A program made the translations under genes and the position numbers. From positions 372,001 through 436,000 of the forward strand of contig JAHBWW010000001.1 in assembly GCA_019636795.1 (NCBI GenBank): DNA of 64,000 nt, read 5' to 3'. The notes under the pieces are model-generated. The model was not told the origin of the DNA. It did no database searches and saw only the letters and a list, made by a program, of their open reading frames with translations. Source of the stretch: Phycisphaeraceae bacterium (lineage in GTDB: Bacteria > Planctomycetota > Phycisphaerae > Phycisphaerales > UBA1924). Shown in pieces: positions 9,120 through 10,571 of the stretch; the stretch's first letter is position 1; each line of letters starts with the position of its first letter.

Positions 9120-10571
9120 GTGCCTGATGATCCAGATCCGTATCGACCCGGCGACCTGGACGCGGAGGGGTTTCTCCCCGCCGACGCGCCGCCGCCCTGG
9201 GGCACGGAATCCCGCGATGAGCGACTGCTCCGGCTCAACCGTGCCGCACGCAACCTCCCGCCAGCGCCGGGCGTGTATCTGATGAAGGACGCTACGGGCG
9301 TTGTCATTTACATCGGCAAAGCAACACGCCTCTGCGATCGCGTTTCGAGTTACTTTCTTCAATCGACCGAGCTCGGCCCGCGCAAAAACCCCATGCTCGA
9401 CACGGTTCACTCGTTCGATACTCTCATCTGCGAAACCGAGTGGGAAGCCCTGCTCGCCGAAAGTCGCCTGATCAAAGACGTCAAACCGAAGTTCAACGAA
9501 CGGCAGACCGACGATAAGACATTCCCGTATCTCGTCGTCACGCAACGAGAGGATTTTCCGCGAGTCTTCATCACGCGCAACCCCGCCGGCATCGACGACA
9601 AAACCGGCGCGCAACTGCCCGAGTTCAAGGGAGCGCGCGTCTTTGGTCCATTTACAAATTCTCAGGCCTTGCGCGAGGCCATTCATTACTTGCAGCAGGT
9701 CTTCAAATTTCGTACATGCTCGCTCGACATCAAGGCGGGCGACCCAAAGAACCACTTCTTTCGCCCTTGCCTGCTGCACGCCATCGGGCAGTGTACAGCG
9801 CCATGCAACGATTCAATATCGCCCGATGCCTATGGCGCAGACATCGACCGCTTCATCCGCTTCCTCGGCTCGCGACGCAGCGTCATGCTCCGCGAGTTGC
9901 GACAGGAAATGACCGATGCAGCCGCGACAATGAACTATGAAAAGGCCGCCACCTTGCGCGATCAGATCTCGGCAATCGAAAAACTCGATCAACGCGCCAG
10001 TCTCAACGATCAATGGCAGCCCGAAGCCGAAATCGGCTACATCGAGCCCGAAAAGGCACTCCGAAGCCTCGCCAAAACCCTCGCCCTCGATCGCCCCATC
10101 CGCTGCATCGAGGGCATCGACATCGCCCACCTGCAGGGCGGCGAAACCGTCGGAAGCAAAGTATGTTTCATCGACGCCCGCCCGTTCCGCGATCAGTACC
10201 GCCGCTATCGCATCCGCAGCGTCGAAGGCGGCAACGACGACTACGCCAGCATCCGCGAGGTCGTCAGCCGCCGCTATCGCGAAGCCGGCGCAGGCCACGA
10301 ACTCTACCCCGATCTCATTCTCATCGACGGCGGCCTCGGTCAGTTGCACGCCGCACTCGAAGCGTTTGCAACATTGCAAATCCCACCGCCGATGGTCATC
10401 AGCCTCGCCAAGAAAGAAGAACTGATTTACACACAGCAGCGCTCCGCCCCGATCCGCCTCGGCCGCAACAACCCGGGCCTGAGGTTGTGCCAGCAGATCC
10501 GCGACGAAGCCCACCGCTTCGCCCAGCACTACCACCACATTCTCAGACGGAAGAAGTCGCTGGAAGAGTGA
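9120..10571 (+). CDS. uvrC: UvrC-like excinuclease subunit lacking the C-terminal HhH domain
   Basis: The 483-residue protein has a GIY-YIG nuclease domain (GVYLMKDATGVVIYIGKATR, about 51-70). Four cysteines at about 200, 217, 225 and 229 are spaced like the UvrC iron-sulfur ligands (FRTC, RPCL, GQCTAPC). A UVR helix pair lies near 255-290 (MNYEKAATLRDQI). An RNase H-like nuclease domain has GIDIAHLQGGETVGSKV near 332 and LILIDGGLGQLHAALE near 399. The chain stops just after RDEAHRFAQHYHHILRRKK, exactly where standard UvrC (about 600 residues) continues into the tandem helix-hairpin-helix DNA-binding domain. GTG is the only reasonable start. In nucleotide excision repair UvrC makes both incisions with UvrA and UvrB. 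A Cho-like or specialised paralogue is the alternative. Confidence 0.88.
   Translation: MPDDPDPYRPGDLDAEGFLPADAPPPWGTESRDERLLRLNRAARNLPPAPGVYLMKDATGVVIYIGKATRLCDRVSSYFLQSTELGPRKNPMLDTVHSFDTLICETEWEALLAESRLIKDVKPKFNERQTDDKTFPYLVVTQREDFPRVFITRNPAGIDDKTGAQLPEFKGARVFGPFTNSQALREAIHYLQQVFKFRTCSLDIKAGDPKNHFFRPCLLHAIGQCTAPCNDSISPDAYGADIDRFIRFLGSRRSVMLRELRQEMTDAAATMNYEKAATLRDQISAIEKLDQRASLNDQWQPEAEIGYIEPEKALRSLAKTLALDRPIRCIEGIDIAHLQGGETVGSKVCFIDARPFRDQYRRYRIRSVEGGNDDYASIREVVSRRYREAGAGHELYPDLILIDGGLGQLHAALEAFATLQIPPPMVISLAKKEELIYTQQRSAPIRLGRNNPGLRLCQQIRDEAHRFAQHYHHILRRKKSLEE

Follow-up and report, generated by a model that had tools for sequence, protein, structure and literature searches.

The D. radiodurans UvrC model described by Seck et al. 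in 2023 reportedly contains a central inactive RNase H platform, which is said to be the basis of the idea of a closed state. As of PMC7835731 (2021) and PMC9426483 (2022), going by the accessible parts of both, no full-length structure of UvrC existed. The four-cysteine segment of UvrC is assigned an iron-sulfur (Fe-S) role in the literature, the accessible text of PMC9426483 included, and both the Fe-S loop and the RNase H surface are described in that text as contacting DNA. For the C-terminal helix-hairpin-helix (HhH) region, the same text reports that E. coli does not survive UV unless both HhH motifs of its UvrC are in place, a result that speaks against HhH being dispensable in general. 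H. pylori UvrC starts from one HhH motif only, and deletion of this single hairpin is reported there to have caused no marked rise in UV sensitivity, whereas mutants in the catalytic sites lost UV tolerance. A sequence-only reading of the locus studied here had started from the premise that dual incision depends on HhH; this agrees with the E. coli data but not with the hairpin deletion in H. pylori (as given in the accessible text of PMC9426483), and the premise is therefore weaker than stated.

The window analyzed here is a stretch of 64,000 nucleotides from a Phycisphaeraceae bacterium, and its positions 9120..10571 (+ strand) encode a minimal form of UvrC, the sole UvrC found in a 97%-complete genome. 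The frame is open up to a stop codon at 10569-10571, and with GTG 9120 as its plausible, putative start it would encode 483 aa; it is also open upstream as far as 8727, and the conserved part of aligned UvrC starts only near residue 36, thus leaving the start codon uncertain. In the 484-codon frame from 9117, which is used for residue numbers below, Pfam placed the GIY-YIG nuclease domain (PF01541) at residues 51-127 (9267..9497; matching 1yd6/1ycz), the UvrB-binding UVR motif (PF02151, 3.8e-11) at 257-289 (9885..9983) and the catalytic UvrC_RNaseH_dom (PF08459, 2.3e-46; 2nrt at 5.1e-33 by sequence) at 320-469 (10074..10523), the latter carrying D335, D375, D404 and H466. Four cysteines, C201, C218, C226 and C230, sit between GIY-YIG and UVR in a segment at 9717..9806, and these cysteines are invariant in 32/32 aligned minimal UvrC. 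All of these parts are intact, as had been noticed from the letters alone, and the Pfam scan found no HhH and no further family up to E 1. The protein scored 355.5 bits against the NCBIfam uvrC equivalog TIGR00194, above the cut-off of 285.45, with the match split into two stretches, which is a pointer to a second missing part. It stayed below the cut-off of NF001824 (328.9 vs 451) and of the other listed UvrC models. It is not a Cho protein, as the RNase H domain is present and the score with the Cho model PRK10545 (37.2 bits) falls short of its cut-off, 367. In terms of features, it has GIY-YIG with the active-site residues, the Cys4 segment, the UVR motif and the catalytic RNase H, but lacks the C-terminal HhH of 'orthodox' UvrC, as defined in Table 1 of the accessible part of PMC1564403, and the central RNase H-like domain of PF22920-bearing UvrC.

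The window UvrC is thus without both the tandem HhH and the central RNase H-like platform. It ends 15 residues past the Pfam RNase H domain and 4 past our RNase H profile, and the end of the last helix and the stop (10524..10571) occupy the site where tandem HhH begins in full-length UvrC, in agreement with the sequence-only reading. An HhH-region profile searched against six frames of the 3.4-kb locus gave nothing below E 0.001 and hence no indication that an HhH had been lost to a frameshift. Upstream of the catalytic RNase H, a short linker and the RNase H lead-in (9984..10073) take the place of the platform: the gap from UVR to RNase H is 22 residues between profiles, whereas 30 full-length UvrC from the same phylum have a median gap of 131. 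When aligned with a full-length protein of the same phylum (L032), approximately 120 residues between UVR and RNase H, plus the C-terminal HhH, have no counterpart in the window protein. Pfam assigns the central region of full-length proteins to PF22920, 'UvrC Ribonuclease H-like domain', which we equate with the inactive RNase H platform at the centre of the D. radiodurans model. The loss of HhH had been recognized correctly by the earlier reading, but that of the central domain (22 vs ~131 residues) had been overlooked, and the observation was understated.

The double loss of platform and HhH is fixed in the clade. The full-length UvrC of the phylum with the 30 highest scores (L031-L060) served to build five profiles, which they match by construction. 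The profiles were searched against the reading frames of loci, with matches counted below E 0.001. The 139 order/class loci comprised those of all 116 class genomes with a match (120 searched) and 23 from a set of 61 genomes, of which 26 further genomes (open frames 447-875 aa) stand outside the 139 loci. GIY/Fe-S, UVR and RNase H were present in 139/139 of these loci, and platform and HhH each in 0/139; in short loci from other families of the phylum, the three modules were likewise found in 31/31, the platform in 0/31 and HhH in 0/31. The truncation suspected at the single locus is thus conserved. The linker between UVR and RNase H spans 20-34 residues across the 139 loci and 18-52 in the 31 short loci (L349 alone being over 45). 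A stretch of 20-34 residues is too short for an RNase H fold, so the loss of the platform is evident independently of the PF22920 model. The RNase H frame closes with a stop inside the locus in 138/139 order/class loci; L268 is cut by a contig end, and L072 has an in-frame TAA inside the RNase H domain. A compact set of 84 loci was taken from the first 88 plus 30, leaving out the 30 full-length ones, L072 (which is included among the 139) and L089-L091 (full-length type or fragment).

In an independent Pfam check at E 0.001, PF22920 was found in 7/7 full-length and 0/32 minimal proteins, and so was HHH_5 (7/7 and 0/32), with GIY-YIG reaching this threshold in 28 of the 32 minimal proteins scanned. 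Among 27 full-length controls from other phyla, which belong to the best 80 of at least 574 loci, 26 carried platform and HhH in one frame, and one (L185) had them spread over two frames. No separate platform gene (PF22920) was detected in 120 class genomes (0/120), compared with 11/14 control genomes. The control genome of Thermotoga maritima gave a PF08459 match and none to PF22920, its central domain being diverged or absent, which indicates that the PF22920 model can miss diverged copies. The genome of the window holds one RNase H_dom match, as does each of the 61 genomes (own included), so neither a full-length uvrC elsewhere in this genome nor the second, specialized UvrC that had been proposed was found. 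Taken with the empty six-frame search, the absence of HhH from all 139 loci and of the platform from the class genomes, this makes it scarcely conceivable, within the limits of a 97%-complete genome, that the short gene is an artefact of a frameshift or of misassembly, or that it is a minor paralogue accompanying a full-length uvrC.

The partners of UvrC are encoded as well. UvrA (1234.7 bits, single copy) adjoins UvrB (966.6 bits, single copy, profile matched to position 654 of 658) on contig 5 of the same genome, and UvrB was matched in 58/59 genomes tested, with a fragment only in G100. Since uvrC is the sole copy and UvrA and UvrB are present, the UvrABC pathway is encoded with the minimal UvrC as its nuclease, and ordinary UvrABC repair by the window UvrC is likely. 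Other GIY-YIG genes in the genome were represented by two matches, both below cut-off. One of the two, a 155-aa GIY-YIG frame on contig 4 (L127), has no NCBIfam match, and its adjoining frames read like phage genes.

Given the reported need for HhH in E. coli UvrC (accessible text of PMC9426483), loss of HhH could be compensated by a separate protein supplying the missing DNA binding in trans, which was one of the two options offered by the sequence-only reading. However, the PF14520 and PF12826 matches in the genome (E up to 0.1) came from five proteins that all bear known names according to NCBIfam, namely RuvA, DprA, PolX, Pol I and LigA, of which Pol I was read as a part and lies below the NCBIfam cut-offs. 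A stand-alone HhH partner was not found with PF14520 or PF12826, the two HhH families used in this search. Moreover, disruption of HhH is tolerated by H. pylori according to the same accessible text. Another candidate for compensation, an insertion in UvrB, was also considered. UvrB of this genome (L218:3940-6273, minus strand) carries an insertion of approximately 33 residues just before the DESHVT motif, and the corresponding break in the profile match appeared only in G000 and G023, which belong to one family, among 59 genomes. It was rejected as compensation, because an insertion present in just 2/17 order/class genomes tested does not track the loss of HhH. A partner acting in trans is thus unsupported so far, and we regard it as improbable, although a DNA-binding protein that has no recognized HhH might act in this way.

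The residues of both nucleases are conserved. Among 170 minimal rows of the phylum, the GIY-YIG residues (tyrosines, R, E, N) are kept in 169-170, the four cysteines in 169-170, with a single substitution of Cys to Thr in L109, and the RNase H D/D/D/H in 167-170; the exceptions to residue conservation are alignment gaps in L266, L268, L347 and L072. These data indicate that both active sites are maintained, which bears on whether the minimal UvrC might cut efficiently on one side only and leave completion to another nuclease or an exonuclease. Such a division of labour would fit the view that E. coli UvrC depends on HhH for the 5' cut, the 3' cut or both (accessible text of PMC9426483) and the existence of Cho, a single-cut relative (accessible part of PMC1564403). 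A one-cut enzyme, however, would not be expected to preserve both active sites, and this explanation is improbable in our judgement. In the 33 rows of set A3, the first of the Fe-S cysteines is absent in 6 and the last in 4; L162, L166, L167, L172, L174 and L175, of the Patescibacteria-type minimal UvrC or its neighbour, are short of one or two of them. C-terminal to the RNase H profile, 89/170 minimal rows have at most 10 residues, and 64/170 carry a tail of at least 20 (up to 112). Of these 64 tails, 56 have a net positive charge; the window UvrC is tail-less. L063, L075, L076, L077 and other class loci carry basic, low-complexity tails after RNase H. From their composition, such basic tails are a possible substitute for HhH, and some members may bind DNA by them.

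AlphaFold2 prediction based on 33 aligned minimal proteins gave a model with a mean pLDDT of 84.9 and a pTM of 0.49, in which residues 292-306, between the UVR helices and RNase H, have pLDDT under 50 and are disordered. The first Foldseek matches were C-terminal halves of UvrC (2nrt, 8b0q) and GIY-YIG domains (1yd6), with 2nrt as the top fold match. As modelled, the minimal UvrC appears to consist of two rigid, confidently predicted modules on a tether, whose relative position the model does not give. Overall, we consider it quite probable that the window UvrC is the ordinary and only UvrC of the cell, a minimal dual nuclease that is recruited by UvrB and dispenses with HhH and platform. UvrB on damaged DNA would recruit it via UVR-UVR contact, GIY-YIG would make the 3' cut, and RNase H, free on its tether, would make the 5' cut; we infer dual incision by the minimal UvrC from its sequence. 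In place of HhH, the RNase H surface and the Fe-S segment would hold the DNA together with UvrB. As the platform is absent, there would be no platform-held closed state, and activity would be set mainly by recruitment through UvrB. Loss of the platform may possibly be what renders HhH dispensable.

The same minimal form is present in some Omnitrophota, Elusimicrobiota and Patescibacteria. In a scan of genome contigs, the best 80 of at least 574 confirmed loci were taken for architecture typing, a sample that was chosen by similarity to the minimal form and thus gives no frequencies. Of these best 80, 35 have the minimal form (19 Planctomycetota, 5 Omnitrophota, 1 Elusimicrobiota, 8 Patescibacteria and 2 others), 18 lack the platform but have HhH (13 Verrucomicrobiota, 2 Omnitrophota, Anaerovibrio, Synergistaceae and 1 other) and 27 are full-length. 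The UVR match of L186 is weak (E 0.008), and the MAG names Kuenenia and Isosphaera in the sample appear mislabelled. The Verrucomicrobiota loci represent an intermediate form, in which the platform is absent and HhH is kept. L147, from Anaerovibrio slackiae, also has HhH and no platform and stands beside a full-length Selenomonas UvrC in the tree; judging from this placement, its platform loss is seemingly recent and in a cultured genus. In 13 of the long loci the 3' match is incomplete; of these, 4 have HhH, 7 run off the sequence end and 2, L249 (G079) and L251 (G065), are closed by a stop with the platform kept and HhH absent. Loss of HhH is therefore not confined to platform-less forms. 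These two loci contradict a strict order in which HhH can go only once the platform has gone, and they argue against the strict version of the hypothesis that platform loss frees HhH; Helicobacter may provide further exceptions to the platform-first order.

In a quick tree, 44 minimal planctomycete rows group together (98) and 11 full-length planctomycete rows lie elsewhere, and a branch with support 90 (not starred) has all platform-less rows save L147 and L158 on the same side. The architecture states are clustered, with 7 changes vs a shuffled mean of 38.5. In AU tests, neither the grouping of every planctomycete UvrC of the set into a single clade (p 0.39) nor such a grouping of every minimal form (p 0.35) was rejected. 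A broader reading, to which we give an even chance, is that several lineages run UvrABC with a tethered dual nuclease lacking both an autoinhibitory platform and a DNA-binding domain of its own, so that the place and timing of both cuts would be set by UvrB alone; HhH and platform would then be regulatory parts outside the core incision machine that can be lost stepwise, usually the platform first.

UvrC is hard to study, and the minimal form is a good candidate for a structure of UvrB, UvrC and DNA. With both active sites kept and two extra domains shed, it offers a natural test of the parts that dual incision requires, and it puts in question the rule that HhH is essential to UvrC function. 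We treat it as a new UvrC variant, which lacks the 'orthodox' HhH feature but exceeds one curated cut-off and has all catalytic features. The single steps are not new, as losses of HhH and of the middle region are both known in Helicobacter (accessible text of PMC9426483). In the literature searched, where most subscription papers were beyond reach, we saw no HhH-less or platform-less UvrC outside Helicobacter and no account of an entire class whose only UvrC lacks the two domains.

Compared with canonical UvrC (E. coli, T. maritima, D. radiodurans; 1ycz, 2nrt, 8b0q), the minimal form shares GIY-YIG, Cys4, UVR, the catalytic RNase H and the active-site residues, but the central PF22920 domain and the tandem HhH of the canonical proteins are both absent from it. 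The platform-less UvrC with HhH (13 Verrucomicrobiota, 2 Omnitrophota, L147, L158 and L170, among the best 80 of at least 574 loci) have the same short linker and lack of a platform match but, in contrast, keep the tandem HhH. Cho and Cho-like proteins, according to the accessible part of PMC1564403, likewise have GIY-YIG and Cys-rich parts and no HhH, but have no EndoV/RNase H-like domain and make the 3' cut only, whereas the window protein retains RNase H and is the only UvrC of its genome. Helicobacter UvrC, compared by its description in the accessible text of PMC9426483, comes closest in its losses: the species in the alignment of that paper have a single HhH motif or none, the middle region is absent in H. 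felis and H. suis, and the catalytic sites of H. pylori UvrC are intact and needed for UV tolerance. That case concerns one genus, and its HhH loss is read there as a loss of purifying selection, whereas both losses described here are class-wide and occur in several phyla.
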